DNA of 64,000 bases from Candidatus Methanoperedens sp. (lineage in GTDB: Archaea > Halobacteriota > Methanosarcinia > Methanosarcinales > Methanoperedenaceae). Below are positions 8,778 through 55,572 of this stretch, piece by piece. Both the position numbers and the translations under genes were made by a program. Under the pieces are notes generated by a model. The model did not search any database. It was not told where the DNA came from and was given only the letters and a program-made list of their open reading frames with translations. The stretch lies in NCBI GenBank assembly GCA_012026795.1, contig VEPM01000007.1, positions 1 through 64,000 on the forward strand. The letters run 5' to 3'. Every line of letters begins with the position of its first letter. Position 1 is the stretch's first letter.

Positions 8778-9001
8778 ACCTATCCCATCCAACATTTTTG
8801 GTTTTTATATTGTTTTTAATAGTTGATAGAATTCCCAGGTACATTTTTTGCTGTCATGTCCTATCCATTTTGGTTAGAGGAGTTATTCCCCTTATCCTAT
8901 CGTCCTATTTTTTATTCGTATTAATACGAATACATTTTTTTAATATAGAGTTATATTTTTAGATCTATGACCTATTAAAACTTGCTGTATCTAATTAAAT
9001 C
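8778..9001 (-). promoter_or_regulatory. Upstream region of the left giant cytochrome: 20-bp palindrome and GGATAG motifs
   Basis: This 224-bp gap holds no gene. A perfect 20-bp palindrome, TATTCGTATTAATACGAATA, lies at 8923-8942, next to AT-rich TATA-like sequence at about 8945-8970 (minus strand). Copies of the minus-strand hexamer GGATAG occur at 8861-8866 and within 8779-8790, directly before the start codon. The palindrome is placed where an operator near the transcription start would be. No regulator is identified in the window. Confidence 0.5.
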
Positions 9002-28200: not shown

Positions 28201-31200
28201 GGTATCAATTACACCATTGAGATGGCCAATCTGTGTACCTGTTGAAGCATTTGCACCATGGCAACCGTTACAGTTTGTGTCCGAGGTATGAGTCTTGTTG
28301 TTCCTTGTTGTGAAAGCTGTTGGCGGAATGCTGTGGCAGTCACCACATGTTACACTTGATGTGTTCCAGGTAGGTTTGGGCTTGACATCGTTCGGGTTAG
28401 GGCTGTGGCAGTACACACTGCATGTCTTGCTCGCATTGATGCTACCGGTAACATTTGTGAAGTTAATATCGATCACTGCATTGGTCTTATGGCCTGTCTG
28501 GTTACCTGCATCTGCATTCGTTCCATGGCATTCTGCACAGCTATAGCCTTCTGTTGTATAATGTCTGGTATGATTACCAGTTGGCGGCAGACCGCTTGGG
28601 ACTGTTGAGTGACATTCTGTGCATGTTCCTGCTGTTGCTGTGTTCCATGTGGCTGTTCCGACTTTTGCACCGCTGCTTAAGCCGTTGCTGTGGCATGAGA
28701 CGCCACTACAGGTATCGTCGTTACCTGAGGCAAGGTTCTGGAAGTAGGTCATGGTGGCTGAGGCATTGGCTGCAACATCTGCTGCACCATCATTCTGGGG
28801 GTGACCGGGTTCGTAACCACCTGCATTGTTATGGCAGTATTGACAGCTTGTGTTTTCAAGAGTACCGTAACCTTTGGATTTATGAAGGTCATGGGCACCG
28901 GTCATGTTGTATCTCTCGGTTCCACTTGGCGGTTGAGAATGACAGGACAGGCAGTTCATTGTCGGAGTATCAATTACACCATTGAGATGACCGATCTGTG
29001 TGCCTGCTGATGCATTTGCACCATGGCAGCCGTTACAGTTTATGTCCGAGGTATGAGTCTTGTTGTTCCTTGTTGTGAAAGCTGTCGGCGGAATGCTGTG
29101 GCAGTCACCACATGTTACACTTGATGTGTTCCAGGTGGGTTTGGGCTTGATATCGTTCGGGTTAGGGCTGTGGCAGTACACACTGCATGTCTTGCTGGCA
29201 TTGATGCTACCGGTAACGTTCGTGAAGTTGATATCGATCACTGCATTGGTCTTATGGCCTGTCTGGTTACCTGCATCTGCATTCGTTCCATGGCATTCTG
29301 CACAGCTATAGCCTTCTGTTGTATAATGTCTGGTATGATTACCAGTTGGCGGCAGACCGCTTGGGACTGTTGAGTGACATTCTGTGCATGTTCCTGCTGT
29401 TGCTGTGTTCCATGTGGCTGTTCCGACTTTTGCACCGCTGCTTAAGCCGTTGCTGTGGCATGAGACGCCACTACAGGTATCGTCGTTACCTGAGGCAAGG
29501 TTCTGGAAGTAGGTCATGGTGGCTGAGGCATTGGCTGCGACATCGGCTGCACCATCATTCTGGGGGTGACCGGGTTCGTAGCCGCCAGCGTTATTGTGGC
29601 AATACTGGCAGCTTGTGTTTTCAAGAGTACCGTAACCTTTGGATTTATGAAGGTCATGGGCACCGGTCATATTATACCGTGTTGTGCCGCTTGGAGGCTG
29701 GGCATGGCAGGAGATACAGCTCATTGTCGGGGTATCGATTACTCCGTTGATATGTCCTGTCTGTGTACCGAGTGTTGCGTTTGCACCGTGGCAGCCGTTA
29801 CAGTTGGTATCTGTTGTATGATTTACATTGTTTCTTGTGATTGTCGGCGGGATGCTGTGGCAGTCACCACATGATACGCTTGAAGTGTTCCAGGTGGGTT
29901 TGGGCTTGACATCGTTCGGGTTAGGGCTGTGGCAGTAGACTGAGCATGTCTTGCTAGCATTGATGCTGCCTGTGACGTTCGTGAAGTTGATATCGATCAC
30001 TGCATTGGTCTTATGGCCTGTCTGGTTACCTGCATCTGCATTCGTTCCATGGCATTCTGCACAGCTATAGCCTTCTGTTGTATAATGTCTGGTATGGTTA
30101 CCTGTTGGTGGCAGACCGCTTGGGACTGTTGAGTGGCATTCGTTGCATGCTCCTGCTGTTGCCGTGTTCCAGGTGGCTATGCCGACTTTTGCACCGCTGC
30201 TTAAGCCGTTGCTGTGGCATGAGACGCCACTACAGGTATCGTCATTGCCTGATGCCGGGTTCATGTTATAAGTCCCTATTGAGGCTGAGGCATTTGTGAC
30301 TACTGTTGCATTGTCATTTGTATTAGGATGACCTGCTTCGTTCTTACCCCCGGTTGAATGGCAGTAATCACAGCTTGTTTCCGGGATGCTGCCGTATCCT
30401 GCTGATTTATGCAGGTCATGGGCACCGGTCATGTTGTACCGGACCGTACCGCTTGGTGGCTGGGAGTGGCAGGATGTACAGCTACCTGAACCTCCCTGTA
30501 CACTTGCATTATGGAAATCCACGATTGCAAGGCTCGAAACATTGCTATCTTTGTGGCATACATCACACTGGCTTGTCAGGGTTTCGGTATGATTTCTTTT
30601 TATGCTTGTACTGATATTCACCGGGGAACCCCAGCTTGCATTGTTTGAATATGTAGCATTGTTATGGCACTCGATACAGTTGGAGGTATTGATTGGACCA
30701 AAGTGCTGGTATGGGCTTGTTGAAATGTTTGTTACATCCTTAATATAATGTACAAAAGCAGTTGTCATTCCGTTAGTTCCTGCATTTGGCAGGAACATCC
30801 CGCTATTGTCATGACAGGTATTGCATGTTGCATTGGTTATTACGTCCTGACCGACCTGGTTATGTTCTGCTACAAGCGGAGCGCTGTAATTTCCTGCACC
30901 GGTATGACAATCAGCACATAGCTTCGGATTCCTGTAATTTTCTGGATGACCGCTGGCCGGAGCTGTTCCGTCACCATGGCATGCATAACATGCTTTGTTC
31001 ACATCGGTCAACGCCTGGTTCAGGTTCCTATGTGTGCTGTTCTTAAGAACATTTATATCAACTTCTTTTGGTGCTGAGCCGCCGATATCATGACAGGATT
31101 TACAATCCGGTCCTCCTGATAATCCCTGAGCGACATTATGAAGAAGACCTGTGATATTTGTGCTCGATGTGAGGCTTCCGTGGCACCCCTGGCATGACGC

Positions 31201-40759: not shown

Positions 40760-42526
40760 TCATAAAAATATTTGATACATCCATTTTAAAATATTCCCCA
40801 ATATCGGCAATATAGCAAAATTCTGTGAAGGCGATATATATGTCATGCTTACGACCCAGTAATAAAAAAGCATCAAAAAAGACGCTTCAGCTATTGATAA
40901 AGATATAAAAAACATAGTTAATTTCTTCGTAATTACAAAAAATCGTTCATTTTTTATTAAAATATTTAATGATACAACAATTAACAAAAATACCGCTGTT
41001 AATTGTGAAACATAATAATATAAATACATGAATCGTACAGGGAATTGTTCTATAAAATAGATACTACCCAATAATATTAATACTCCATATACTATGGCTA
41101 TTGTTTTGAATTCAACCTCGATCAGTTCCTTTATTCTATCTATTCTCAATATAAAATAAAGTAATATAATATATATCATAAGAAGATACCTGTATTCAAG
41201 TACCGCAGGGGTATCTGTTATTATAGAACCGAATAAATTTATATTTAATAATATATATAATAAACTATATGCGCCCAGAAGTATTGCAATATATACAAAG
41301 AAAAATTTATCCAATATATTTAGTTTGATCCTGGACTTACCCATATAAACAATAAATGCAAGCGCAATTATTAAAAATGGACTAACCAAAAAAACACCGA
41401 ATGTATTATTCAATTTAATAAATAAAACAGAAAAAATAATTCCTATAAAAGATTCATTTATTGAATTCCATTTATATCCGAGTTTGTCCAGAAGTTCACT
41501 TTGCTTATTATTCCCATTGTTATCAAGTAAAATGAAATCCTTTGACGTTTCCAGTGTTATTCCTTCATCTGTCAGCGGAGTATTTTCTAAAATTGAAAAC
41601 GGGGTTCCGAGAATCAAATAATTAAAGATCAAATAGGGTATTAACGATATCAAAATGATTGATAAAACAGATAATACATATTTAATATTTATTTTTTTAA
41701 CGGTAATAAAATGCATTACTATAAGCGATATTAGAAGTACAGTACCGTCTAAAATTCGTGTCCAGATACATAATCCTGCTAAAACATAAGAAATAAATAT
41801 ATATTTATTTTGTTTTGTTTCATAATGTTGATAAAAATAATAAATGGATAATAACGTAAAAAATAAAGTTAAACTATGGTGTTTAAGTGTAATGGCATAA
41901 AATGAAATCGGGGTAGCAAGGATCACAAAAAAAGAGGCGAATAATGCAATTTTATTTCCAAAAAAAATGTTAAATAATTTATAAATGATCAATGCAATAA
42001 GCGAAGTAATTATAATATTAGTAAATTCTATAGAAATCAGTTCACCCCATTTTGGAAAATAAATGGGTTCAAAGAAAAACCAATTGGATAAAAATAAAAT
42101 TCCAGACGATAAAACACCGATTTTTAAAGCATTACCTGATTTCTTATACTTCATAATAAAATAAGCGATCATCCCACCGCTTAATGCCCATAACTGCAAT
42201 ATTAAAAGATGTGCACCATAATAATTATCGATTATTTTTAATATATAATATACAGGTAAAGATAAAATAAGTAAAGAATAACTGAATAATCCATAAAGGT
42301 TATTACCAACTACTATAAAAATTCCTTTTTCTGTGTTTATCTTGGCAATTTTAATAGCTAAAGAACCGTTTATTAAATTATAAAACTGATCTAATATCAC
42401 CCCCTCGTCAGATAAAAATAACCGGGTTCCTGCAAAGGTGAGAAGAATGAAAAATGAACTGGTAAATACAAATAATGGAATTGGATTGGAATCGAAGTAA
42501 TTCAATATCTTTTTAATAATATTCAT
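40760..42526 (-). CDS. Polytopic membrane glycosyltransferase-like protein (PMT/GT-C fold)
   Basis: A 588-aa protein (ATG at 42526; an in-frame TTG lies 36 nt upstream) with about 12-13 transmembrane helices and an early acidic loop (FLSDEGVILDQFYNLI). The layout is that of GT-C glycosyltransferases that use lipid-linked sugars (PMT_2/DUF2029-like). I cannot assign substrate or exact family. It is 52 bp downstream of the winged-helix/TM gene and on the same strand, so it is probably the last gene of the minD operon. It may belong to envelope glycosylation with aglB and the Agl23-like gene further on. Confidence 0.7.
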   Translation of the reverse strand: MNIIKKILNYFDSNPIPLFVFTSSFFILLTFAGTRLFLSDEGVILDQFYNLINGSLAIKIAKINTEKGIFIVVGNNLYGLFSYSLLILSLPVYYILKIIDNYYGAHLLILQLWALSGGMIAYFIMKYKKSGNALKIGVLSSGILFLSNWFFFEPIYFPKWGELISIEFTNIIITSLIALIIYKLFNIFFGNKIALFASFFVILATPISFYAITLKHHSLTLFFTLLSIYYFYQHYETKQNKYIFISYVLAGLCIWTRILDGTVLLISLIVMHFITVKKINIKYVLSVLSIILISLIPYLIFNYLILGTPFSILENTPLTDEGITLETSKDFILLDNNGNNKQSELLDKLGYKWNSINESFIGIIFSVLFIKLNNTFGVFLVSPFLIIALAFIVYMGKSRIKLNILDKFFFVYIAILLGAYSLLYILLNINLFGSIITDTPAVLEYRYLLMIYIILLYFILRIDRIKELIEVEFKTIAIVYGVLILLGSIYFIEQFPVRFMYLYYYVSQLTAVFLLIVVSLNILIKNERFFVITKKLTMFFISLSIAEASFLMLFYYWVVSMTYISPSQNFAILPILGNILKWMYQIFL

Positions 42527-42577
42527 TTTCTGCCTGCCTGCTAATAATTCAAATATATACAAAAATTTGAAAGTTCT

Positions 42578-43183
42578 TTATAAAACCCCGAAATAAATAA
42601 TCAAAATAATTAATATTATTACTGAAACGACAAGTATCAAATCAATTGATTTTTGGATCTTTATATTTCGTTCCTTTCTATTTTCAATAACTATTTCAAT
42701 AAATTCAATGATTGGTCTCCAGACCTCTTCCGGGTTGCCAGTTTCAAATTCTTCGATCACATTTTTACCTTTAGATGTAATTACACAGAATTGAAAATAT
42801 TTTATAAAACCATCCTTAATAAGTTTATATATATGTTTCTCGACTACCGGACTCCTGATTTGGAGTGCATTTGATATTTCTTTAATGGTCTTAAAGCCAT
42901 AAGTTACAGATTTCAGAATGGCATAGTCCACTTCTCCAAAAACTATATCTTCATTTTCCGTATTGTCCTGATAGTTATTTTCCCTGATTCTCCGGACCTG
43001 GACAACCGGACCTTCTTTTTGTATGGTTTTTTCTTCATCCTGCCTGGTTTCTGCTTTTTGTGATTTTATTATATTTTCTTCAGGTTGTTTCTTTGGAGTT
43101 TTTTGTTTTACATCTTTTGGTGTTAGCCATGGGCTATCATCCATAAAAAAATTTAAAACATCTTTATCTTTCGATTTTTCCAT
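42578..43183 (-). CDS. Winged-helix protein with C-terminal membrane anchor
   Basis: A 201-aa protein in three parts: a charged, probably disordered N-terminus (residues 1-75), a winged-helix/ArsR-like domain (about 78-150: DYAILKSVTYGFKTIKEIS...) and one C-terminal helix (about 178-200) that would anchor it in the membrane. Such tail-anchored wHTH proteins are common and little known in archaea. It starts 2 bp after the minD stop, so the two should be co-translated. It may tether DNA or partners of MinD to the membrane; this is inferred. Confidence 0.75.
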   Translation of the reverse strand: MEKSKDKDVLNFFMDDSPWLTPKDVKQKTPKKQPEENIIKSQKAETRQDEEKTIQKEGPVVQVRRIRENNYQDNTENEDIVFGEVDYAILKSVTYGFKTIKEISNALQIRSPVVEKHIYKLIKDGFIKYFQFCVITSKGKNVIEEFETGNPEEVWRPIIEFIEIVIENRKERNIKIQKSIDLILVVSVIILIILIIYFGVL

Positions 43184-43185
43184 GT

Positions 43186-43923
43186 TTATCTTAACAACCT
43201 GGCAAAAATACTTTTTTTCTCAGGAATCCCACCGATCTTTTTTGCTATTTTCATCAAGGCCTTTGCAGATGGTGATTTTGGTTTCAGCAGGATAAGAGGT
43301 TTTTTTGTATCCCTGGATTTAATGATAGAATCATCTTCCGGTATAACACCTATTACGGGTAATCCCAGCTTTACTCCAAGGTCATTATATATACTCTTTT
43401 TATATTTATTTACAATAATTCCTGTTATATTCAGGCCGGCAAGACCTGCAACACCTTTGACTTTTTGCGCATCCGATATAGAAGCAGGTTCCGGGTTAAC
43501 AACTAATATTACCTCATCTGAATAAGTAACAGGCAATATGCTGAACTTCGAAAGACCTGCAGGAACATCAAGAATTATAAAATCATAATCCGAATTCTTA
43601 AGCTCAGATATAATTTCACCTAATTTGTCCATATTCACATCTTTCAGGGCCTGAAGTGAAGAGCCGCATGGTAAAATATTTAGTCCCATCTGGATTTGAT
43701 ATATTGCATTCCTGACATCTGATGAACCATTAAGCACTTCAAGAAGAGTTATCATAGGCTTTTCAAGACCGGTATATAGATCCAGGTTTGGGAGGGATAT
43801 ATCAGTATCCACAACTAAAACTTTTTTGTTCAAAGATGCTAATGCAAACCCGATATTTAGTGCAACGGTTGTTTTTCCAACACCGCCTTTCCCTGATGCT
43901 AGAGCAATGATTTTTGGAGCCAT
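43186..43923 (-). CDS. minD: MinD/ParA-type P-loop ATPase
   Basis: A 245-aa deviant Walker A ATPase with SGKGGVGKTT at residues 10-19, VVDTDISLPNL as the A' motif, and LDVPAGLS as Walker B. The C-terminus (KKSIFARLLR) can form the amphipathic membrane-targeting helix typical of MinD. Archaeal MinD-like ATPases position membrane machinery; they need not act in division. It lies between a membrane-anchored wHTH protein and a surface-type membrane protein, so it may organise an envelope complex. Confidence 0.88.
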   Translation of the reverse strand: MAPKIIALASGKGGVGKTTVALNIGFALASLNKKVLVVDTDISLPNLDLYTGLEKPMITLLEVLNGSSDVRNAIYQIQMGLNILPCGSSLQALKDVNMDKLGEIISELKNSDYDFIILDVPAGLSKFSILPVTYSDEVILVVNPEPASISDAQKVKGVAGLAGLNITGIIVNKYKKSIYNDLGVKLGLPVIGVIPEDDSIIKSRDTKKPLILLKPKSPSAKALMKIAKKIGGIPEKKSIFARLLR

Positions 43924-43927
43924 TTTC

Positions 43928-45217
43928 TCACTTTAACTTCCATTTTAAATACAATCTTAATGCTACTATGGATATTATAAGTATTGAAAGACCAATTATG
44001 TATTTAAGCTCTGGTTTTTTTTCTTCTATAGATATTATTGAAATATTTGTTGCATTCGTAACCTGTTCAGGGGATTCTACAAAAAATATCTTGCTTAGAG
44101 ATGTATTTGTTATTGAAACCCTGTAAGCGCCCGGTTCAGGTTTCGTTACATTAAATTTTACATCTTGAGTCTCGGTAAAATTCAGGAAAACTTCTTTTTG
44201 TTCTTCAAGTTTATCATTAATTAACAGTTCCACAGGTTGAGAACCTTCTTTACCGACATTTTCAACGGTCACAGAAATAGTTACGGTCTCACCCTGAATA
44301 ACACTTAATTTATCTATCTGTAAATCCTTAATATTAAATGAAGTGGGTTTTTCAACTATTTTCTCTGGAACTATGCTGAAGAATGCAGAATTATTTAATC
44401 CCATTGCATTAGGTCCTATAGGAATTATCTCTATCAAATGGTCTCCTACGATATCGGATGAGACTATGGTAGTAACATTACGGGATTTGTAACCTTCAAG
44501 TTCTATCGTAGTATTACCTATTTCTTTGCCATCCAATAATATCAAAACCGGGGTTGAACCTTTATCATAAAAGGTATTCAGAACATTGAAACTGATTTGA
44601 ATTTGTTCTTTTGGTGCAACGCTGTACCTGTCAAGGATTATATTTTCAACTCTGAATCTATCTACCGGATATTTGTTTGCGTACCTATCCACATAAAATG
44701 TTTTACTTATGTTTATAAGTTGATTTTGATCACCTAATATATCGCTTCGATTAATTTCAGGTATATCCGGTATTCCTGAGCCATTCAAATACGATTCTGT
44801 AAGGTTAAAATAATAATCATTCATCAGGGAATCATTAAGCAGATCAAAAACATGGATTTGTACTGTATATACTCCGTCTTCCCAGCTTTGTGGGATACTC
44901 TTTGAGTATACGACAAAATCATTTTCCCTGTAATCATCATATTTACTACTCAAAGATGAAGTATCTACAATATTGTCATTTGCATCTTTAATTAGAAAAA
45001 CATAATCAACAGCTACATGGCGCCTATGATTAATCCCATTTGATTCCACATATATTTTCATGATACTTCCTGGAGGAAACCTGTCATTCCAGTGCAAATC
45101 ATAATCCTGCAATCCTCTTACATTATAAACTATCCTTGCATATGCATTGTCCATTGCCATCGAGGGAGAAGACATTAATATGAAAATTATTATTATGATG
45201 GCTAGCTTATAATTCAT
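43928..45217 (-). CDS. Secreted CARDB-domain protein with C-terminal membrane anchor
   Basis: A 429-aa protein with a signal peptide (about residues 4-21, ending SMA), an extracellular region with at least two Ig-like/CARDB domains (QIDKLSVIQGETVTISVTVENVG is the clearest, about 300-370) and a C-terminal helix (about 402-420) followed by KWKLK. It has no PGF motif before the helix. Several N-glycosylation sequons are present. It is 4 bp upstream of minD and likely co-transcribed. A structural or adhesive surface protein is the likely role; no enzyme motif is seen. Confidence 0.75.
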   Translation of the reverse strand: MNYKLAIIIIIFILMSSPSMAMDNAYARIVYNVRGLQDYDLHWNDRFPPGSIMKIYVESNGINHRRHVAVDYVFLIKDANDNIVDTSSLSSKYDDYRENDFVVYSKSIPQSWEDGVYTVQIHVFDLLNDSLMNDYYFNLTESYLNGSGIPDIPEINRSDILGDQNQLINISKTFYVDRYANKYPVDRFRVENIILDRYSVAPKEQIQISFNVLNTFYDKGSTPVLILLDGKEIGNTTIELEGYKSRNVTTIVSSDIVGDHLIEIIPIGPNAMGLNNSAFFSIVPEKIVEKPTSFNIKDLQIDKLSVIQGETVTISVTVENVGKEGSQPVELLINDKLEEQKEVFLNFTETQDVKFNVTKPEPGAYRVSITNTSLSKIFFVESPEQVTNATNISIISIEEKKPELKYIIGLSILIISIVALRLYLKWKLK

Positions 45218-45398: not shown

Positions 45399-46403
45399 TC
45401 ACTTATTTTTCCAGGCTAAATTTGTTTCCTCTTTTTCAACATCCTCTTTTAATCTTTTTTTAAGTTGGGAAAATGCAATACCCACCATTTCCTGTAACAT
45501 CCCTTTATCCTGTGTAGCGAAAAATTCACTTGTCGTTGGTTCCTGCTTCTTTATTCCTATAAATGGAAGGCTTCCGGTTGTCATATATATAGCCCATAGG
45601 TAATAAGTCAATGTATATATTCCAACAGAGAGATATATTATGGCAAGCAGTACATTATAATTTAACAGGTTTAAGAGTAATGTTATTGAAACAGGTACTA
45701 CAAGTATAGGGAAAAAAACCATACCCCATGCCATAGAGTCTTTCCATAAATTATATTCTTTTGTAATAAATACCCACCACATAATAAAGATCAAAAGAAT
45801 GCCGTAATTTGTTAAACCGATGATCTGGAAGTTAATAAAAAATATAAATGCAGCCATTGTCACTGATAATAAAAACATTGTTTTAATAGCAAATTTTATA
45901 GAAGTACCAACAGCAATGGGCTCTTCCATGAATTCACGTGATTTTACCTCTCTTGTGTACCCTTGTTTTAAGATATTCTGGACTTTTAAATCCATATTCT
46001 CAAGGCGCCCGAGAATAATATTTGTATCAACATGAGATTGTGCAATGTTCTCCATTAGAGGACGCAATCTTGCATAAACACCATCCTGAAAAGCCGTATC
46101 TATCAAAATATCAGCAATGATTTTTCTTTTAAAAATATTGATGCTAAAATATATTGCACCAGAACATATAAGAATTATTAATATATCAATTAAAGCATAA
46201 ATATAGTTTGATTTATTAAAAAGGTCAATATAAAGTGAAAAAAATGTAATCAAAAGGATCACTACCGAAATAATAAAAGCGCAAGCTAAGCCTATTTTTT
46301 CAAATAAAGATAAATGCTGGACAGGAGCCGATGATATATCTTCGGTAGTATTCAATAGCGGATTCTTCATAGTGTCACGGATATTGTTGCGTTCCATTGA
46401 CAT
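45399..46403 (-). CDS. Polytopic membrane protein of unknown function
   Basis: A 334-aa protein with about two helices near residues 36-105, a soluble loop (about 115-170) and about four further helices (about 172-290). The C-terminus is charged. I do not recognise a family. The ORF opens at 46403, overlapping the octaheme cytochrome by 29 bp; an internal ATG at 46370, with GTGA just upstream, would remove the overlap and is an equally good start. Tight linkage to the cytochrome suggests a membrane partner, but no heme motif is present. Confidence 0.7.
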   Translation of the reverse strand: MSMERNNIRDTMKNPLLNTTEDISSAPVQHLSLFEKIGLACAFIISVVILLITFFSLYIDLFNKSNYIYALIDILIILICSGAIYFSINIFKRKIIADILIDTAFQDGVYARLRPLMENIAQSHVDTNIILGRLENMDLKVQNILKQGYTREVKSREFMEEPIAVGTSIKFAIKTMFLLSVTMAAFIFFINFQIIGLTNYGILLIFIMWWVFITKEYNLWKDSMAWGMVFFPILVVPVSITLLLNLLNYNVLLAIIYLSVGIYTLTYYLWAIYMTTGSLPFIGIKKQEPTTSEFFATQDKGMLQEMVGIAFSQLKKRLKEDVEKEETNLAWKNK

Positions 46404-47466
46404 ATATTGTTACCTGTGGTTCAGTATAGTATTTAAAGTGTAATGAATTATTCGGAACAGGATTTCCCGTATTTTTACAGGCCATACAGAAATAACCCTG
46501 AATAAAAGCAGGCTGCAAAGTGATGGAATTCTCGATATTCCCCATACTGCTGCTGTTATAGGGGGGTGTTCTTGTCGCCCCATTGATATCCACAAAAAGA
46601 TTTCCTGACCTGCCGTGGCAATCCATGCATGATATAGTCATTGAATTGTGGACTGGCAAATTGAATGGGTTTGCAGGATAGGGCGATGTTCCAGCATTAT
46701 TCTGAGTTAATGGTTTATGGCATGATTTACAATAGGAATTAAGGTCTGAATAAGCGGATAAATTATGATTTTTTCTCCATTGTTCATTAGAATGACCACC
46801 TGCCAGAGCTGCCTGTTTAATATCTTCATGACAGGATATACAATCCGTATAGGTTGTAACCAGATTAATGTTATGCAGTTTCCCACCAGGATTCCCGGTT
46901 GTGTTTATTCCATTAATTATCTTCATTTGTCCTATTACAAGATTGCTTATTGTCCATGTACCTGATGAATTTAATACGTCCCATTCAATAAATTCCGGTC
47001 TTGTAAAATTAACATTTTTATAATAATCTGAATGGCAGAATATGCAAGCTTCATTCTCACCTTTCATCAAAGAATTTGAAACTGCGCCGCTGATAAAAGG
47101 ATTATGGGATTCTGCATTTGTTATGTTTTCTCCGAATACTTGTGCTAAAGGGGTCATAAATGTATTATTATTTGAATCCGTCACAATACGCAAAGGCATA
47201 CCATGGCAATCAAGACATCCGGGGACATCACTGCTATGCAGCTGATTTAATGATTCATTTAAATAATGGCAATTTTCACATGAAAAATATGTATGATGTA
47301 TTGATGAATCCAGGTCCTGCCTGATGTCAGGATGGCATTTTAAACATCGGGATATTCCTGAAGGATATATATTATGCTCTCCTGAAAACAGGGAATAAAC
47401 TGAAGGTAATAAAAATATCGCAGCGACAATTAATGCCCCGATAAGTAATTGATGCCTTATTTCCAT
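46375..47466 (-). CDS. Octaheme c-type cytochrome with one CXXCK site
   Basis: A 363-aa secreted or membrane-anchored protein with a hydrophobic N-terminus (about residues 8-26). It has seven CX2CH motifs and one CX2CK (C327-K331), the lysine-type site known from NrfA nitrite reductase. The N-terminal half aligns with the tetraheme cytochrome at 48262: both have LF-(S/A)-G-(E/Q)-HN exactly at residue 26, then four hemes, LM(K/E)G.NEACI.CH and W(T)(I/V)SN. The other four sites are in an added C-terminal half. Several sequons are present. Context: signal peptidase I lies between the two related cytochromes. It could be an electron carrier or an enzyme; the Lys ligand hints at a catalytic or special-potential heme. 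Confidence 0.92.
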   Translation of the reverse strand: MEIRHQLLIGALIVAAIFLLPSVYSLFSGEHNIYPSGISRCLKCHPDIRQDLDSSIHHTYFSCENCHYLNESLNQLHSSDVPGCLDCHGMPLRIVTDSNNNTFMTPLAQVFGENITNAESHNPFISGAVSNSLMKGENEACIFCHSDYYKNVNFTRPEFIEWDVLNSSGTWTISNLVIGQMKIINGINTTGNPGGKLHNINLVTTYTDCISCHEDIKQAALAGGHSNEQWRKNHNLSAYSDLNSYCKSCHKPLTQNNAGTSPYPANPFNLPVHNSMTISCMDCHGRSGNLFVDINGATRTPPYNSSSMGNIENSITLQPAFIQGYFCMACKNTGNPVPNNSLHFKYYTEPQVTIYVNGTQQYP

Positions 47467-47488: not shown

Positions 47489-48214
47489 TTATCTATTTTG
47501 CCATGGCTTTTTCTTGAATGAAAGAGTAATATATAATATTATACAAAGAACTATAATAACATAACCGTAAATTTTGATCACCTGGAAAAACAGGAAATAA
47601 CTCCTGTAATCATTTCCAAAAAGAGCTAACTGCTGGTCCTTGGCATCAACTATGAAAAATCTCCCGTATCTTTTGATAACAATAGGCTTTCCATTAATAG
47701 TAATAGCTTTTGCAAGAATATTTTCTTTCGTGATCTTCCATCCGTCCATCAGGCCTGAGAAATCCCCTGCTGTTCTTATCATGCCGTCATCGCCAATCTT
47801 AGCTATCCTGTGAGTTACGGGCCGGCTTGTATAAGGGTCAATGAACATTACGATATCCCCGATGTTATATGATTTACCTATATTTTGCATCAGGATCAGG
47901 TCGTTTCTTTCAAACGTAGGTACCATACTTCCGGATACTACTGCTGTAAAGAATATACTTTTTGATGCAATAATTAACATAATTAATGAAAAAATAGAAA
48001 AGATCATTACTTCTTTGAGTATCATCTTCTGGGAATCCTGAGGTTGTTTGGAAATATCCCTTATGTAATTATTTATGCTGGATTTTCTATGGTATGATAA
48101 AGAATAGCGTTTTACAGGATTAAAAAAGTCATTGTTAAGTATTGACTTCCTCAAAATGATCAAAGATATAAAAAGAGATGCAATGACCAAAATACTCAGT
48201 AGCGGTAAAAACAT
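47489..48214 (-). CDS. Signal peptidase I (Sec11-like)
   Basis: A 241-aa membrane protease that removes signal peptides from secreted proteins. The catalytic Ser is S96 in SGSMVPTF and the archaeal-type His is H135 in VTHRI, with GD following at about 142-152. Helices lie at about residues 4-22, 72-92 and a C-terminal one near 215-232. It has an unusually long N-terminal part with two helices before the Ser. It sits between two related cytochromes. Its ATG (48212-48214) comes immediately after an 11-T run that ends the tetraheme terminator, so it has no visible ribosome site and its expression is odd. Confidence 0.88.
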   Translation of the reverse strand: MFLPLLSILVIASLFISLIILRKSILNNDFFNPVKRYSLSYHRKSSINNYIRDISKQPQDSQKMILKEVMIFSIFSLIMLIIASKSIFFTAVVSGSMVPTFERNDLILMQNIGKSYNIGDIVMFIDPYTSRPVTHRIAKIGDDGMIRTAGDFSGLMDGWKITKENILAKAITINGKPIVIKRYGRFFIVDAKDQQLALFGNDYRSYFLFFQVIKIYGYVIIVLCIILYITLSFKKKPWQNR

Positions 48215-48250
48215 AAAAAAAAAAAGAAAAGGAAAAAATTTTCCTTTTAT
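48215..48250 (-). terminator. Hairpin and 11-T run after the tetraheme cytochrome
   Basis: Arms 48227-48236 and 48239-48248 (AAAAGGAAAA/TTTTCCTTTT) are followed on the minus strand by eleven T residues (48215-48225). The element sits 14 nt beyond the tetraheme stop codon and touches the start codon of the signal peptidase gene. Confidence 0.75.
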
Positions 48251-48261
48251 TTGTACAGATA

Positions 48262-48885
48262 TTAATATTCTGCAGTTGAATTTGTAACAGTTGTGTTTAC
48301 ACCACTTGACTGGAAGTTGCTGACAGTCCAGACACCGGTTTCATTGCTGTCTGCTATGAAGGATAATCTGGTAGGCTTGTTCCATGTTATTGTTACTGCA
48401 ACATGTGTATGGCAGCCGATGCATGCTTCATTGGATCCTTCCATCAGGTCACCCTGTGTAGCATTTGCCGAGTTAACAAAGTCCTTATGTGCTTCTTTAG
48501 ATCCATTGTAGATCGAAGTTGCCATAGGTGCGGCGAATATGTTACCACTGACACCATGGCAGTCCATACATGCCGGTGCAGCTGCTGCATGGATGTTTCC
48601 ACTGCTATTTCCGGAAACAATCGCTCCAAGCTCAGTTTGAGACGTAATGTGGCATTCAACGCATGTTGTTTGGCCATCTGCATGTGCTCCATTTCCACCC
48701 ATAGCATCCATCTGTTGCTGGACATCTGCGTGGCATTTAGCGCAAGGTACACCCATATCTGTTGTATTTGTTTTATCTACATCATACCAGTTATGCTGGC
48801 CTGCGAATAAAGCAAGTGTTTCTGGCAGGGCAACCAAGCCAATAGCCAGAATTGCTATTCCCAATATTACTAATTTATTTGTCAT
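48262..48885 (-). CDS. Small secreted tetraheme c-type cytochrome (candidate nanowire subunit)
   Basis: A 207-aa protein with four CX2CH motifs (CAKCH, CVECH, CMDCH, CIGCH). I chose the ATG at 48885: upstream ATG 48915 and TTG 48924 exist, but this one has GGATGTGA before it and aligns exactly with the N-terminus of the related octaheme protein. A signal peptide covers about residues 4-26. Seven N-glycosylation sequons are present. The gene is a single unit with its own TATA box, repeated operator-like sequence and strong terminator, which suggests high expression. Size and heme number match the archaeal extracellular cytochrome nanowire subunits described from Pyrobaculum and Archaeoglobus. 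Polymerisation is inferred, not shown. Confidence 0.92.
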   Translation of the reverse strand: MTNKLVILGIAILAIGLVALPETLALFAGQHNWYDVDKTNTTDMGVPCAKCHADVQQQMDAMGGNGAHADGQTTCVECHITSQTELGAIVSGNSSGNIHAAAAPACMDCHGVSGNIFAAPMATSIYNGSKEAHKDFVNSANATQGDLMEGSNEACIGCHTHVAVTITWNKPTRLSFIADSNETGVWTVSNFQSSGVNTTVTNSTAEY

Positions 48886-48982
48886 ATTTTTCACATCCTT
48901 TCCTACCCATTTCATTTTACCCAATTTGGGTTTAATTTGGGTATAATTAGTATAAAGTCATATTAGTTTATATACATTTCGA
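48886..48982 (-). promoter_or_regulatory. Promoter and operator-like repeats of the tetraheme cytochrome
   Basis: A TATA box on the minus strand (TGTATATAAACTAA, about 48965-48980) lies about 85 nt before the ATG. Between them, AATTTGGGT occurs twice (48923-48931 and 48934-48942) at one-helical-turn spacing, and the first copy is part of an inverted repeat ACCCAATTTGGGT (48919-48931). This looks like a protein-binding site or a leader RNA element. GGATGTGA lies 6 nt before the chosen ATG. Confidence 0.6.
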
Positions 48983-49420
48983 TTAACCCCATATCATATC
49001 CTCCACAACATACCCTATCCGTCGTCCTTTTTCATCTACGACAATTATAGATATATGCACAGAGTCATTGACTTGCGGGTAATATTCTTCGTCAAAACCT
49101 ATGTTGAATGTATATGTGCCATTTCCTTTATATGGTAACACCTCCCAGGGACCGGTTGCGTTCATGCTCGCTTTTGTACCATTCCTTACTACCAGTGTCC
49201 TGCCGGATATGGCCGGGAATGCCTGTGCAATAGTATTTCTGGGTCTTGCAGCATAATCGACCATTCCCTGAGTAAAGGTAAGATTTTCCGGGACCACATA
49301 ATCCCCTTTTTCCACGAATGAAATATTCACCTTCAATACGGGTACCTGTTTTAAAGGATTTTCTATACATCCTGAAGCTACTATTCCAAGAAGGAATAAC
49401 AAAATTATTTTCGTTTTCAT
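48983..49420 (-). CDS. Small lipoprotein of unknown function
   Basis: A 145-aa protein with a signal peptide and lipobox ASGC (Cys18), so it should be lipid-anchored on the outer face of the membrane. The rest is a beta-rich domain (residues ~30-145) without heme motifs or recognised family. The start is 3 bp after the hexaheme cytochrome stop, so it is the last gene of aglB-surface protein-hexaheme-lipoprotein. It could be an assembly or anchoring factor for the neighbouring cytochromes. Confidence 0.75.
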   Translation of the reverse strand: MKTKIILLFLLGIVASGCIENPLKQVPVLKVNISFVEKGDYVVPENLTFTQGMVDYAARPRNTIAQAFPAISGRTLVVRNGTKASMNATGPWEVLPYKGNGTYTFNIGFDEEYYPQVNDSVHISIIVVDEKGRRIGYVVEDMIWG

Positions 49421-49423
49421 GAT

Positions 49424-50137
49424 TTACCTCAATATTTGCGTAAACTGTCCTAATAACTTAATAATAAATTCTCCGATAGATGGATATTCGGGCTTATTTG
49501 ATATGTTTGGCATGGATATATTTGATAATGAAGGAAGCTTTGCTTTATCTTCTGCCCCAAGACTATTAACATATACTTCTATATATTCACCATGGCATGC
49601 CACACACATTTTTTCAATTCTTTTGCCATGTACGACATGCGGATTCACATTATGACAATCCGAACATCTGGTTTTCAATGGCTTCTTATAAGTACCGTTT
49701 TCATATGTGTGGCAACTCAGACATGCAGTTTTGCTCATTACCCTGTGGAAATCCCCCGCAGTTACATTTTTTTGGGATTTTAACCCAACATGACATCGTA
49801 TGCAAACTATATCCTTGTGAAGATTTGCTATTTTCGTCATATCAATTTTCCTATCATCACCCTTAGCATAACCTTTTACCTGATTGGAATGGCAATTTTC
49901 ACAAGAACTGGAAATCGCACTTGCCTTTTCTGTCCCTGCAAGCATATAGTGGCATGGTAAACATATTTTGGCATCATGCCAGCGTGCTCCTACCCCATCT
50001 TTAAATTCAGGCCTCTCATAAGCACTGGCAGGACCTGCGAACAGAAAAGGTAACATAACCATAGTACAAATAATAAAAATTATATTTTTATTTATTGGCA
50101 CTATTTTTTTTCTTGAAGTTTTATAATTTTTAATCAT
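49424..50137 (-). CDS. Hexaheme c-type cytochrome
   Basis: A 237-aa protein with a signal peptide or anchor (about residues 19-40, ending ASA) and six CX2CH motifs (CLPCH, CENCH, CIRCH, CLSCH, CSDCH, CVACH) in about 130 residues. The heme-free C-terminal 60 residues end in a possible amphipathic helix (IGEFIIKLLGQF). The ATG directly abuts the stop of the preceding surface-protein gene (TAG-ATG), so they are translationally coupled. Heme density is much higher than in the giants, typical of compact electron-transfer cytochromes. It may link membrane carriers to the larger extracellular proteins. Confidence 0.92.
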   Translation of the reverse strand: MIKNYKTSRKKIVPINKNIIFIICTMVMLPFLFAGPASAYERPEFKDGVGARWHDAKICLPCHYMLAGTEKASAISSSCENCHSNQVKGYAKGDDRKIDMTKIANLHKDIVCIRCHVGLKSQKNVTAGDFHRVMSKTACLSCHTYENGTYKKPLKTRCSDCHNVNPHVVHGKRIEKMCVACHGEYIEVYVNSLGAEDKAKLPSLSNISMPNISNKPEYPSIGEFIIKLLGQFTQILR

Positions 50138-51751
50138 CTATGACCTGAATAATCTTAATATTACTATGAAGAGTATAATAACAACATATTCCTGAAATCC
50201 CGGGGTAGATTTGGGCGTTGGAGCCGCTGTTCCGGTTGGAACAGAAGTACTTATCTTTTCAGGAGTGATCATCGGTACAGGAGTCCTGGTAATTTTAACA
50301 GGCTGCTGCTGCGCAATTATGGATTCTTTTACATTAAAGCTGATATTTCCTGAATTGATCTTTTGTATATACCGCTCATCCTGGTAAAGGAACTGGTCCA
50401 GAACGGTCGCTTTTGCGGGGGGAAGAATGAAAATGCCTGTATCATTAATATTTAATGTGTATGAGAATGAAGTAGCGTTACCTGCCCGAAGAACAACAGT
50501 TTTTAATATATTTGAAAAAGATATGTTCCCGGATTTTAATGAGTAATTAACCGGAACACTATCCATAATTTTTACTATAGCTGCTACATTTCCCTGGTTT
50601 TTGGCCTCTATCGTAACAGTCACATTATCTCCTTTTGCAGGATTTTCAATATTTGAGTACTTTGATAATACTACATAAGGGCCGTTCACTATAAGTTTGT
50701 CAAGATTTTTATTATATTCCAGACCATCCTGGTATTCGATCCTGGAACTGCCAGGCTGGAAAAAATAAGTACCGGGTTTTTGGGGTTTTACCATATAAGA
50801 TATCGATTTTTCCTCAAGGGGACCTAATGAGAAATTCCAGGACATATTTGGATTTACTGGTATAAGACCACCGGGAATAGCTTCCTCAAGGGTCAGGTTT
50901 TCAATTTTCCGACTCTCATTATTCTTTATAAATACAGAAACAACGGCAACATCTCCCATATAAATCTTTTCAGTTACGGATTTTCTAATATCAATTCTTT
51001 TTTCGGTCTGCGGCTTTACTTCAATATTAATAGAATCAACAACCTTATAAGTCTTACCGAACCTGTCATTTCCACTGGCCTGTGCAAATATCGTAAAATT
51101 TTTTTTTTCTTCAACATATGGAGCCCTGAAACGAACTGTATTAGCGTCTGATTCATTTCCGGCAGTTATATCGAGCAATTCATAATACAATTTATCATCA
51201 ACAAGCAAAGGCAAACTTGAATTGATCCTGAGTATCGTATCCTTTAATACGGCTTTGCCGTCATTCCTTACTGAAAAATTAAAGGAGATCTCAGAACCCG
51301 GGACAAATGACCGCCTGACTACCATTTTATTTTTGATCCTTTCTTCATTGGGAGCGATTGATACCCTGGGTATTGGCCGCCCTGCAACCCTGGTCTCAAT
51401 CCTGACCGATTGATCAACAACAACATTGAGTCCGAGGCTCGCTCCGATATTCCCCCTTTTTTCCTGAAGATTTACGATCGTGATATTCATCTGGTCGTTT
51501 ATATTCATCCAATCATTGATCCGTGTTAGATTTTTTGATATTATATTGTGGTCTTTATCATATACGGAAATAAGGGAGCTGTTATCATAAAAATCCGAAG
51601 CTTCAATATAAAAACCATCCCTGATCACAAATTCCATCAACCTTAATGTCTTTTCCTGGGGGTCCACCCATTCAATATCATCAGCTAATGCCGGGATAAT
51701 AAATAGAAAAATAATAATTGGAATTATTAAAATTTTATATAGATTTTTCAT
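50138..51751 (-). CDS. Surface protein with COG1361-type domains and PGF-CTERM signal
   Basis: A 537-aa protein: a signal peptide (ending ALA, about residue 22), several conserved-repeat/COG1361-like beta domains (about 130-460), a Thr/Pro-rich linker, and a C-terminus TPGFQEYVVIILFIVILR. The latter is a PGF-CTERM-like signal (PGF, helix, basic end), which in archaea is cut by archaeosortase A and replaced by a lipid anchor. Sequons are frequent. It shares one base with the aglB stop and abuts the hexaheme gene, so glycosylation enzyme, surface protein and cytochrome form one operon. A scaffold for the cytochromes is plausible. Confidence 0.82.
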   Translation of the reverse strand: MKNLYKILIIPIIIFLFIIPALADDIEWVDPQEKTLRLMEFVIRDGFYIEASDFYDNSSLISVYDKDHNIISKNLTRINDWMNINDQMNITIVNLQEKRGNIGASLGLNVVVDQSVRIETRVAGRPIPRVSIAPNEERIKNKMVVRRSFVPGSEISFNFSVRNDGKAVLKDTILRINSSLPLLVDDKLYYELLDITAGNESDANTVRFRAPYVEEKKNFTIFAQASGNDRFGKTYKVVDSINIEVKPQTEKRIDIRKSVTEKIYMGDVAVVSVFIKNNESRKIENLTLEEAIPGGLIPVNPNMSWNFSLGPLEEKSISYMVKPQKPGTYFFQPGSSRIEYQDGLEYNKNLDKLIVNGPYVVLSKYSNIENPAKGDNVTVTIEAKNQGNVAAIVKIMDSVPVNYSLKSGNISFSNILKTVVLRAGNATSFSYTLNINDTGIFILPPAKATVLDQFLYQDERYIQKINSGNISFNVKESIIAQQQPVKITRTPVPMITPEKISTSVPTGTAAPTPKSTPGFQEYVVIILFIVILRLFRS

Positions 51752-54012
51752 CAGTTCACCGATATTGTATTACCATTAAGGATATCTTTTTCTGAAACAT
51801 TAATAGAACGGGTAATATTATCATATTTTAATGTAAAGCCTTCTAATAACTTTGTCCTGTAAGGACTTTCTTTTGAATATGGAACTATAAATTCAAAATA
51901 TCCGTTTTCATCTGTATTATTTTTTTGTGTATACTCAAATCTTCTTTTCTGGTTTGTAATTATCGTGCCTGAAAGCATTACAGATTCATTCGATGTAGCA
52001 TTTCCAATTATCCTTGCACCCATTACATATTCAAATATTTTAATGTCCCTGCTTACGTTGTCAAATATGTCATAATGCATTTCCTTTGATTCATATATCA
52101 TTCTGTAGTTTTTAAGTCCTGCGCCATCGAACACATGCATTTTTGAATACATTGTTTGGAAATAATTATTATTGGGAAAATTATTTTTATCAAAATACAT
52201 CCCGATATCTTTGTTTGCTAAATTTGCAATACCAAAAAATGTCCCTTTTATAACTACTTGATCACCCTGACTGAACTTATTTAACCCCATTTGCATATCC
52301 ATAACAACATATCTTGCTTTTCTTTTATCCATTATCTCATTTGCAAGTATTTCATTATCCTCTGTGAAAAACCTGGCAGCTTCATCACCGCCGATCTGGA
52401 AATTATTGGCTACAACCGGACGTTTTGAAATATACAATATCCAGTTGCCATAATCCCACCATGCCATAACACCATACTGGGGGATTCTTCCAGGATCAGG
52501 GGTGTTATCTCTTAACCACACCAATGAATCATACCAGTCATCCGAGATTTTGGGCGGAGATTGTGCCATATTATACGCCATCACGGAATTTGGAATAACA
52601 AGAATCGTGAGAATGAACAAAGCAATATAATCCGATTTCAGGTGAAAAGTTTTGAATTTACCAGTATTACAACTATATAATGCGACCTTATCCAATAAGA
52701 ATCCCGATAATATCGCCACATTTACTGCAAGCATATAAGTAAAACGCCTCTGGGATAGAGCAAGTGACACGACTAATAAAGTCCATATTATGAGAAATAA
52801 TGTTCCTTTATCGGCCCCTCTTCGACTATAATAAATTAATAAGAAAAATCCTATGATCGCAAAATAAAAACTAAAAGAGAATTGATACCACACAGGATTA
52901 CTGAAAAATCGCCATCCTAAAAAAATCCCATCATATGTATAAAATAAAGGTTGCGCCTCAATTACCTGTTTTATGGCAGACGCATCCCTTAGCAAATATC
53001 CTATACTGTTCAATAAATTTTCGTAAAAAGATGGCAAGCTAATTACCATCATGAAAAAGAAAGAAGCAAAAATAACAATTAATATTAATGGGTAGAAAAT
53101 CCATTTCTGGCCTTTCATGAACCTGGAAATTATTCCTAAAAAAACAACTATTATCGCACCAAAAAATACATACATTAACTGGAAATATGACAGCACACCT
53201 GCTTGCAGATTTTTCTGCCATGGTATCCAGAGATAAAAAAGCAGAATCGTAAAAAAAGCGATGGAAAATGAAATAATCCCGGTTTTTAGAAGATAATTAG
53301 AATCAACATTAGATTTTTTATCAATGATAAACTGAATGATTACATAAGATAATATTATCCCGATAAATATCGGAGCTCCGATCCATGTAAGAAACGATAA
53401 TCCGATCATAATCCCGGATAAGATAGAGAACCTGTAGGAATCGTTTTTTAAAGATCTCATAAAAAACAAATAAGCTATAACCGAAATAAGCACCTCAAGA
53501 ATATGATGGTCAACAAATCCCACGAACGATATCTGGGCATGCGCCGGCATCACTGCAAGTAAAAGGGAACTATATAGACCTGCACGTTCATTAAAAATTT
53601 CTTTTGCAATATAATATACTGAAATTATAGAAATAATTCCTGTAAATACGGGGGTAAATGCACCTATTATTTCAACAAGATACGTACCCGGATTGCCAGA
53701 ACCGGCAATTAAAGAGACCAGGGCGATGCTTTGATCTGAAAGAGGTGGCCACCCTACGGCAGCACCGTATGGAAAATTAAGGAACGGATCGAAAAAGAAC
53801 GTCCCGGGGAAAGTCTCTATATATGAAAATACCCGCCACATGTGGTAATATGGATCTGCCTCAAGAAACACTACCCTGCCTGGCTCAAAAACCTGCGAAA
53901 AAGTAAAAAGCCTTACTTTAAAACCTATTAAAAGTATTAGAAATAAGAAAATGAAAGTCTTAGATTCCGGCCTGATTTTATTCCAAATTGTCATTTTTGC
54001 GTATAAACTCAT
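51751..54012 (-). CDS. aglB: AglB oligosaccharyltransferase (STT3 family)
   Basis: The catalytic subunit that moves a lipid-linked glycan to Asn in N-X-S/T on the outer face of the membrane. Length 753 aa with about 13 helices and a C-terminal soluble domain. The first acidic motif is EADPYYH (about residue 51), the second VDHHILE, and the STT3 hallmark WWDYG lies at residues 518-522. A beta-sandwich end (from about residue 670) follows. It heads the operon that includes a PGF-CTERM protein and a hexaheme cytochrome, and diverges from the Agl23-like gene. The many sequons in the cytochromes are likely substrates. Confidence 0.95.
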   Translation of the reverse strand: MSLYAKMTIWNKIRPESKTFIFLFLILLIGFKVRLFTFSQVFEPGRVVFLEADPYYHMWRVFSYIETFPGTFFFDPFLNFPYGAAVGWPPLSDQSIALVSLIAGSGNPGTYLVEIIGAFTPVFTGIISIISVYYIAKEIFNERAGLYSSLLLAVMPAHAQISFVGFVDHHILEVLISVIAYLFFMRSLKNDSYRFSILSGIMIGLSFLTWIGAPIFIGIILSYVIIQFIIDKKSNVDSNYLLKTGIISFSIAFFTILLFYLWIPWQKNLQAGVLSYFQLMYVFFGAIIVVFLGIISRFMKGQKWIFYPLILIVIFASFFFMMVISLPSFYENLLNSIGYLLRDASAIKQVIEAQPLFYTYDGIFLGWRFFSNPVWYQFSFSFYFAIIGFFLLIYYSRRGADKGTLFLIIWTLLVVSLALSQRRFTYMLAVNVAILSGFLLDKVALYSCNTGKFKTFHLKSDYIALFILTILVIPNSVMAYNMAQSPPKISDDWYDSLVWLRDNTPDPGRIPQYGVMAWWDYGNWILYISKRPVVANNFQIGGDEAARFFTEDNEILANEIMDKRKARYVVMDMQMGLNKFSQGDQVVIKGTFFGIANLANKDIGMYFDKNNFPNNNYFQTMYSKMHVFDGAGLKNYRMIYESKEMHYDIFDNVSRDIKIFEYVMGARIIGNATSNESVMLSGTIITNQKRRFEYTQKNNTDENGYFEFIVPYSKESPYRTKLLEGFTLKYDNITRSINVSEKDILNGNTISVN

Positions 54013-54078: not shown

Positions 54079-55572
54079 ATGTCAAATTCCTGCATACATG
54101 CCTTTATGATATTTAAATTTCCAGGAAAATTGGATAAAACACTGATTGTTTTTATTTTTATAGCTATCGCGGGTTTTTTACTGAGGCTATTTAAACCTGC
54201 AGAAAATCCTCTTGACTTTGATGAAAGTATTCATGCTTTTACATCATTTTTATTATTTAAATATAATATTTATGTATATAATCCTACTACTCATGGACCT
54301 TTTCTATATTATATGACTGCTGGGATCTTTCAAGTTCTGGGAGATAATATATTATCGGCTAGATTATTCCCGGCTTTATTTGGGGGAGGGATGGTTTTAT
54401 TACTCTTTCCATTACGCCGATATTTTGGAGATGTTAAATTTTTATTAATATCAGGCATGATCGCATTTTCTTATTCTTTCATAACATTTTCAAGACAATT
54501 AAGACACGATATTTTCCTGGCGTTTTTCATTCTTGCCTTTATAGTATGCATGATATTATTCTTTGAGCATCATTCAACATTATATCTTTATTCAGGTTCT
54601 GCTTGTTTAGCAATAACTATGGCCATAAAGCCTACAACATATATTTTTATGTTTATCATAGTCTATTTCCTTATATTGAATAAAAATGTTTTTTATAGGA
54701 TCTATGAAGAATTAAATACGCAAACTGGCAAAAATAATAAAATTAGCTTTATCATAATTTACATTATATTAATCTTTATTTCTATCAATTATTTATTTTA
54801 TAATAATTTATCAGATGGATTTTTTAAGGCGATATATAATTGGGTTTACCAAATTTATTATCCAAGTGGTAATCTAAAAGAAATTCTATTTCAACCGTAT
54901 TATTTTTATTTAATAAACCTATTGAAATTTGAATTTATTATTTTCATTACGGGTTTAATTGGCTCCATATATTATATATTATTAAAAGATAAAAGTTATT
55001 TTATTCTTTTTTGTTCTTTCTGGGCTATATTATCATTATTAATTTTTTCTATGATTAAATATAAAACTCCTGATCTTATACTGAATATTATATTGCCTTT
55101 TATAATTGTTTCCGGGTTTTTTCTTGGTGAAATAATAGAGAGATTTTTCAATAAAAACAGAATGAATTTTACATCAATAATAATTATACTGCTTATTGTA
55201 TTGGTATTAATTAATAATCCTCTTTTAATTAACTCTAACAATGAATATGAAGAGATTAATCAATTTATTAAAATAAATAAAGGTGAACAAAATGATATAT
55301 ATTTAGTATCACTTCTTGGGAATTTTTATACCATACAATGGCCCCTTCCATGGTATTTAAGGGAGTATAATTTATTACAGGCTGATAAAGGTTACGCCAT
55401 TGAATTAAATTATTTATTTAATGCAAAATACTCAGATAATGCAAAGGACTTTGTTCACCCTTATAAAACAAAAGGAGTGATTATTTCTTCAACAAACATA
55501 ACAAACATGGGAAAATTTGGATACAATAATAGTAAGCGCTTTGAAAAATCCGGCGTGTATATATATTATTGA
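54079..55572 (+). CDS. Agl23-like membrane protein (TIGR03663, flippase-associated)
   Basis: A 497-aa membrane protein with about 11 helices. The early motif DFDESIHAF (about residues 49-57) and THGPFLYY (about 72-80) match the family named 'flippase activity-associated protein Agl23', a GT-C fold group beside N-glycosylation genes. It is divergent from aglB, as expected. An internal ATG at 54106 is an alternative start. The gene is AT-rich compared with its neighbours. Its end overlaps the convergent beta-propeller gene by 7 bp. Confidence 0.82.
   Translation: MSNSCIHAFMIFKFPGKLDKTLIVFIFIAIAGFLLRLFKPAENPLDFDESIHAFTSFLLFKYNIYVYNPTTHGPFLYYMTAGIFQVLGDNILSARLFPALFGGGMVLLLFPLRRYFGDVKFLLISGMIAFSYSFITFSRQLRHDIFLAFFILAFIVCMILFFEHHSTLYLYSGSACLAITMAIKPTTYIFMFIIVYFLILNKNVFYRIYEELNTQTGKNNKISFIIIYIILIFISINYLFYNNLSDGFFKAIYNWVYQIYYPSGNLKEILFQPYYFYLINLLKFEFIIFITGLIGSIYYILLKDKSYFILFCSFWAILSLLIFSMIKYKTPDLILNIILPFIIVSGFFLGEIIERFFNKNRMNFTSIIIILLIVLVLINNPLLINSNNEYEEINQFIKINKGEQNDIYLVSLLGNFYTIQWPLPWYLREYNLLQADKGYAIELNYLFNAKYSDNAKDFVHPYKTKGVIISSTNITNMGKFGYNNSKRFEKSGVYIYY

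Follow-up and report, generated by a model that had tools for sequence, protein, structure and literature searches.

Archaeal cytochrome nanowire subunits are described from Archaeoglobus veneficus (AvECN; F2KMU8, PDB 8E5G) and from Pyrobaculum (PcECN; A3MW92, PDB 8E5F) (PMC11936953). In AvECN, the distal histidine is supplied by another subunit for three of the four hemes (PMC12203936). The accessible part of a further report already names an ECN in Methanoperedens BLZ2 (WP_097300794.1; PMC12246660), and a nanowire cytochrome with a linked protease is found in the OmcZ-OzpA system of Geobacter, Methanoperedens, and Borgs (PMC11208441, PMC10874420). Regarding machinery, Chadwick et al., 2022 put forward two putative genes for cytochrome maturation and heme handling, one encoding a signal peptidase and the other a protein without annotation, "8x TMH". 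The "8x TMH" protein occurs in all ANME groups, Syntrophoarchaeum, Argoarchaeum, Geoglobus, and Ferroglobus, and the pair adjoins giant MHC/CcmF genes in ANME-2a/2b/3; the same work places a widespread group of small cytochromes, possibly the ECN group, among the highest-transcribed genes (PMC9012536). In the literature that we searched, we found no account of the processing, anchoring or positioning of cytochrome nanowires in archaea. In that literature, the original 2023 nanowire paper excepted, the peptidase/"8x TMH" pair is not linked to AvECN-type nanowires, and the remaining members of the gene set presented below are not described either.

We analyzed a window of 64,000 nucleotides (the whole stretch, positions 1 to 64,000 of contig VEPM01000007.1) from Candidatus Methanoperedens sp., and the genes around its ECN gene (Table 1). 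As a nanowire subunit, ECN is already a known kind in Methanoperedens; the larger result is the locus. We consider it probable that ECN is the repeating subunit of an AvECN-type nanowire and that the surrounding genes form a conserved module for filament biogenesis.

Table 1. Features of the ECN locus, in window coordinates.
Feature	Position	Strand	Basis or remark
AglB/STT3 oligosaccharyl transferase	51751..54012	-	
DUF11-repeat membrane-anchored protein	50138..51751	-	
Pentaheme c-type cytochrome	49424..50137	-	
ECN partner, ~145 aa, lipobox/TM-anchored beta-sandwich, no known family	48983..49420	-	
TATA box TATATAA, preceded by BRE-like CGAAATG	48968..48974	-	sequence
Leader/operator motif TATACCCAAATTAAACCCAAATTGGGTA, 11-bp direct repeat and inverted half-site	48918..48945	-	near expected transcription start
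Ribosome-binding-like GGATGTGA ahead of ECN start	48891..48898	-	sequence
ECN, secreted tetraheme cytochrome, AvECN-type nanowire subunit (very probable), 207 aa	48262..48885	-	homology and motif counts
Hairpin 3' of ECN stop codon	48227..48248	-	recurs in seven syntenic loci and L058
11-T tract abutting signal peptidase ATG (48214)	48215..48225	-	sequence
Signal peptidase I of archaeal/ER type, with conserved catalytic Ser, His, and Asp	47489..48214	-	
ECN-ECN fusion, 7 CXXCH and CXXCK	46375..47466	-	
M334, polytopic membrane protein, probably "8x TMH" of Chadwick 2022	45399..46403	-	
M429, extracytoplasmic CARDB protein, C-terminal TM	43928..45217	-	
Archaeal MinD-type ATPase	43186..43923	-	
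Winged-helix-like protein (HTH-TM), C-terminal TM	42578..43183	-	weak family matches

The ECN gene, its product and its punctuation

The ECN gene starts with an ATG at 48885, ends with a TAA at 48262-48264 and has 207 codons of product. The product carries four CXXCH motifs (residues 48, 75, 106, and 155), five histidines outside of them (31, 68, 99, 133, and 161) and exactly seven N-X-S/T sequons. Its N-terminus is signal-peptide-like by its residues, with a hydrophobic stretch followed by a conserved P.TL(A/S)LF boundary. This confirms the small secreted tetraheme protein with seven sequons described in an earlier, sequence-only reading of this DNA. The source genome (3.59 Mb) holds about 1000 matches to the CXXCH pattern.

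Compared to the PDB as a single sequence (phmmer), the subunit gave one strong match, 8e5g_A (E=6.6e-23, residues 3-192), and a profile of 16 ECN sequences matched 8E5G over its full length at E=2.4e-41. Since its sole strong match is the A. veneficus protein, the gene is of the AvECN type. No match to 8e5f was obtained at E<=10 with the single sequence or at E<=1 with the profile, which rules out a Pyrobaculum-type (PcECN) identity. Hence, the earlier proposal of an archaeal nanowire subunit like those of Pyrobaculum and Archaeoglobus holds for the latter, by full-length homology, and fails for the former. Kinship with OmcS, OmcE or OmcZ was also rejected: OmcS (6ef8) alone appeared in the profile search, at E=0.0019, the level of unrelated cytochromes, and no OmcZ structure was present among the profile matches in the PDB.

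Within the 16-member alignment His31 and His133 are invariant, His99 is nearly so, and most homologues have a histidine near position 68. H31, H99, and H133 align with histidines of AvECN, and H68 falls within one residue of another; from the alignment, these four are the likely distal heme ligands of the subunit. The AlphaFold model of the monomer (pLDDT 44.6) was too poor for a comparison of heme stacking with 8E5G. Because three of the four AvECN hemes are ligated across subunits, one should expect the monomer to look incomplete when modeled, and low model quality might be expected for a protein of this type. By the same token, the sequence-only reading had chosen an unsuitable test in counting a predicted monomer without an inter-subunit ligand or contacts against the nanowire. 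Judging from homology, the gene product is very probably a building block of a surface nanowire in this Methanoperedens-type archaeon, and we infer that it polymerizes into a filament.

All the elements of punctuation listed in the earlier reading (a TATA box of its own, a repeated motif, a site resembling a ribosome-binding sequence, and a hairpin with 11 T) are present, with the TATA box at -89. The 28-base motif TATACCCAAATTAAACCCAAATTGGGTA occurs only once in the 3.6-Mb genome, even when up to three mismatches are allowed. It is found 5' of ECN genes in five other species (L049, L051, L055, L058, and L133) at near-constant spacing, and hence is conserved rather than accidental; in the locus of a sixth species (L052) it is degenerate. 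Lying some 25-30 bases past the TATA box, it could be either an operator that overlies the start of transcription or an element of the 5' leader.

At the other end of the gene, the hairpin has a 9-bp, A/T-rich stem followed by exactly 11 T. The hairpin and T-run lie just 5' of the signal peptidase ATG in 7/7 fully syntenic loci, with different stem sequences, and L058 has both too, in this case at some distance from the ATG. Taken alone, the hairpin is modestly stable (z=-1.84). A scan for bacterial terminators, in which 3 G-C pairs are required, did not call it, and an Rfam search of the leader and the hairpin gave no convincing family. The T-run directly abuts the start codon of the signal peptidase gene, so that the ECN gene, previously described as self-contained, is punctuated but not self-contained; read-through from ECN into the signal peptidase operon is likely.

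Composition, recurrence and distribution of the gene cluster

The signal peptidase scores above the cut-off of TIGR02228, with a weak match to the SipW model, and its residues Ser96, His135, Asp151, and Asp157 (the Ser of SxSM, HR, and GD...D) are invariant among 19 homologues. The genome has four signal peptidase I genes, two of which are located in its two ECN clusters. The MinD-type ATPase reaches 228 bits with TIGR01969 (curated cut-off 201.75). M334 has 6-8 TM segments (about 5-7 by a crude hydropathy count) and is probably of the same family as the "8x TMH" protein, judged by its peptidase neighbor and lineage spread rather than by accession. A relation of M334 to EMC3/Oxa1 was dropped, as 1/19 members matched, at E=0.05. 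The CARDB repeat of M429 matches 224/393 genomes of the phylum, making this protein unfit as a clean phylum marker, although its matches below 1e-50, among those listed, are all in genomes with ECN or M334. The partner protein gave a confident AlphaFold model (pLDDT 90.1), for which a fold search of the PDB found no confident analogue (best E=0.024); likewise, it has no sequence relative in the PDB and no consistent Pfam family.

The ECN-ECN fusion is matched twice by the subunit, and its N-terminus starts with the same LFxG(Q/E)H. The sequence-only reading had called this neighbor a related octaheme protein: the relatedness stands, while the heme count is to be corrected to seven CXXCH and one CXXCK. 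Members of the fusion family have 7, 8 or 11 CXXCH, the 11-heme form being found in G004, G006, G024, and on contig C18 of the source genome, and in 6/7 members a CXXCK motif ends the protein. In bacteria, CXXCK heme motifs need a special heme lyase. Two membrane proteins of PMT_2 type (mannosyltransferase-like) flank the cluster, at 40760-42562 (-) and 54079-55572 (+), and perhaps have a role in glycosylating sequon-rich surface proteins. Elsewhere in the window, the giant ORFs at 3-8795, 13682-22420, and 25285-33825 are matched by multiheme proteins of related loci.

The cluster comprises eleven consecutive genes: aglB, DUF11 protein, pentaheme, partner, ECN, signal peptidase, ECN-ECN fusion, M334, M429, MinD, and HTH-TM. 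As far as the fetched stretches of relatives reach, this order is kept in five genomes (G004, G006, G014, G018, and G024), apart from minor insertions or rearrangements in several of them. The source genome carries most of the cluster a second time (G000, contig C18:63000-71700, L019), as a paralogous set with an 11-heme fusion that lacks aglB and a matching MinD gene. Most cluster proteins are about 40-60% identical across the closest syntenic loci, which also have most flanking genes in common. In more distant families the gene order is broken and subsets of the cluster families surround ECN genes, with the core rearranged at 23-36% identity. Homologues of six neighbors recur beside ECN across the phylum: signal peptidase I, M334, CARDB, MinD, pentaheme, and the beta-sandwich partner. 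As an example, the ECN genes of Archaeoglobi (L102, L103, and L104) are surrounded by homologues of the signal peptidase, M334, and M429, together with a hexaheme protein related to the pentaheme one. The most telling comparison is A. veneficus itself (G108), in which the set stays together although linkage to ECN is absent: the genome holds the AvECN gene (100% identity over 240 residues), and homologues of M334, the signal peptidase, M429, MinD, and HTH form one locus (C1:1.645-1.651 Mb) unlinked to it.

In 34/39 loci of the Methanoperedens family, no more than 1 kb separates the partner gene from an ECN-family match, against about 0.3% expected per locus. Linkage of the partner to ECN is also seen in families f3, f10, and f20, in some f9 genomes and in a few of f8; in several ECN-positive f8 (Archaeoglobi) genomes, including A. 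veneficus, it was not detected. In one locus (L117), the signal peptidase/M334 pair sits between an ECN and a large MHC. A single-sequence scan of genome contigs returned only two loci, both of Methanophagales. We also noted three tandem ECN-family genes with 4-5 CXXCH on a Methanophagales (ANME-1) contig (L017 4530-7288). Divergent ECN genes are adjoined by 12-heme proteins in L055 (4831-5826), L056 (7166-8170), L057 (7592-8596), L058 (4791-5717), and L133 (8542-10603); the two scanned, from L055 and L058, have a weak NapC/NirT-like N-terminus, and a quinol-side electron donor is a possible role for such proteins.

We then screened 393 genomes of the phylum for ECN (E<=1e-12) and M334 (E<=1e-6). 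ECN was found in 61/393 genomes and M334 in 60/393, with both in 55, neither in 327 and disagreement in 11 (Fisher 3.8e-54, uncorrected for kinship). The six genomes with ECN and no M334 match (G253, G283, G311, G330, G336, and G346) are mostly incomplete, and the five with the reverse pattern (G092, G199, G242, G321, and G340) are mostly incomplete or have fragmentary matches. Among the 34 genomes of the family, ECN was found in 28, M334 in 29 and the partner in 28. The five without M334 (G008, G016, G020, G023, and G028) have no ECN or partner match either and occupy at least four places in the EF-2 tree. An independent-pairs test within the family gave p=0.25, with too few pairs (3-4 supported), and where the genes are linked one missing contig could mimic their joint loss. 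Where M334 and ECN are unlinked, the evidence for a role of M334 with ECN is their co-occurrence. One of the five, G028, is 95% complete, and the 331 kb sampled from it contain seven multiheme ORFs with 5-16 CXXCH; the contig samples of G016 and G023 were cytochrome-poor, and that of G006 was small and empty. Taken together, synteny, recurrence and co-occurrence lend comparative support to the idea, already raised from the sequence, of an assembly locus.

A proposed nanowire biogenesis module and its rivals

We propose that the cluster is a module for the processing, anchoring and positioning of nanowires. The subunit would be made in excess from its own promoter, with the hairpin and T-tract damping read-through into the machinery genes, and then be exported, loaded with four hemes and N-glycosylated. 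The signal peptidase of the cluster would cut ahead of LFxGQH, which is invariant, and release an N-terminus carrying His31; this residue could then ligate a heme of the neighboring subunit, so that cleavage would license polymerization. M334 and the CARDB protein M429 may form a membrane platform whose position the MinD-type ATPase would set. The small beta-sandwich (lipo)protein may hold, anchor or cap the growing end, and the ECN-ECN fusion may act as an adaptor in line with the filament, at its base or tip, passing electrons from the pentaheme protein. We consider it most likely that processing and polymerization are coupled at such a platform, because the cleavage region borders LFxGQH, whose histidine is a likely intersubunit ligand, the catalytic residues of the peptidase are kept, and half of the genome's signal peptidase I genes are found in ECN clusters. 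We hold more tentatively, and with some doubt, the full picture of a dedicated machine (signal peptidase I, M334, CARDB, and MinD, with the beta-sandwich partner and the tandem-ECN adaptor) in which cleavage triggers growth at MinD-positioned sites, from Archaeoglobi to methane oxidizers.

The main rival to a nanowire module is general cytochrome maturation. On this view ECN is still a nanowire subunit, but the peptidase/M334 pair, together with M429 and MinD, would serve the maturation or heme supply of every multiheme cytochrome in EET archaea, with ECN as the client present in greatest amount. This is the role that the peptidase/"8x TMH" pair was assigned from its place by giant MHC/CcmF genes in ANME-2a/2b/3 (PMC9012536), and the pair between an ECN and a large MHC in L117 points in the same direction. 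In addition, as ECN and M334 are each a mark of EET-capable lineages, lifestyle may account for their co-occurrence. Yet the usual immediate neighbor of the peptidase is ECN, the partner protein tracks ECN, and G028 has multiheme ORFs but no match to ECN, M334 or the partner, a single genome that is not decisive. On balance we find general maturation rather unlikely.

Less probable still is that ECN shares ancestry with AvECN and works as a tetraheme shuttle, monomeric or oligomeric but not polymerizing, between the membrane and the S-layer. The literature consulted reports no filament of the ECN protein in Methanoperedens, and divergent ECN-family paralogues in the same family suggest functional diversification; however, the GQH near the N-terminus is conserved as in AvECN, as are the remaining likely distal histidines, and for a minor shuttle one would not normally expect such a strong promoter/terminator arrangement with a linked peptidase. 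As for gene order being the passive synteny of close relatives, without functional meaning, the shared flanking genes of the closest loci would fit, but the modest identity of most cluster proteins, the duplication of the cluster inside the genome, the rearranged core in distant families and the separate locus of A. veneficus make this very improbable, and we strongly disfavor it.

The biogenesis module thus remains our preferred reading. The recurring machinery is of specialist interest, as it converts an open question into a testable list of genes: a short set of candidate parts, several without a family description, recurring by nanowire genes in methane oxidizers and Archaeoglobi. If true, it would open to molecular study the wiring that carries electrons from methane to minerals or partners.

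Comparison with known systems

With AvECN, the subunit shares the four CXXCH, the (L)FxGQH N-terminus, the positions of the distal histidines, the NEACIxCHT..V.I.W block and the C-terminal segment. AvECN is longer (262 aa against 207), with insertions before hemes 2 and 4 that the protein studied here does not have, whereas the latter has the additional His161. The machinery is linked to ECN here and at another locus than AvECN in A. veneficus. The ECN of Methanoperedens BLZ2 is most likely from the same genus and is likened to ours by its naming; the passages found in its report give the gene's name and no account of the genes around it. OmcZ-OzpA resembles this locus in having a nanowire cytochrome beside a linked protease, but its subunit is unrelated to ECN and OzpA is a serine protease, in contrast to the signal peptidase I found here. 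In the SipW-TasA fibres a signal peptidase I gene is linked to that of the fibre subunit, as here, though TasA is unrelated to ECN and heme-free. The pair of Chadwick et al. likewise has a peptidase beside an unannotated polytopic membrane protein and the same kind of lineage distribution, yet it was proposed for MHC maturation next to giant MHCs, while here what is probably the same pair is tied to ECN genes, in a set that adds M429, MinD, and the partner protein.
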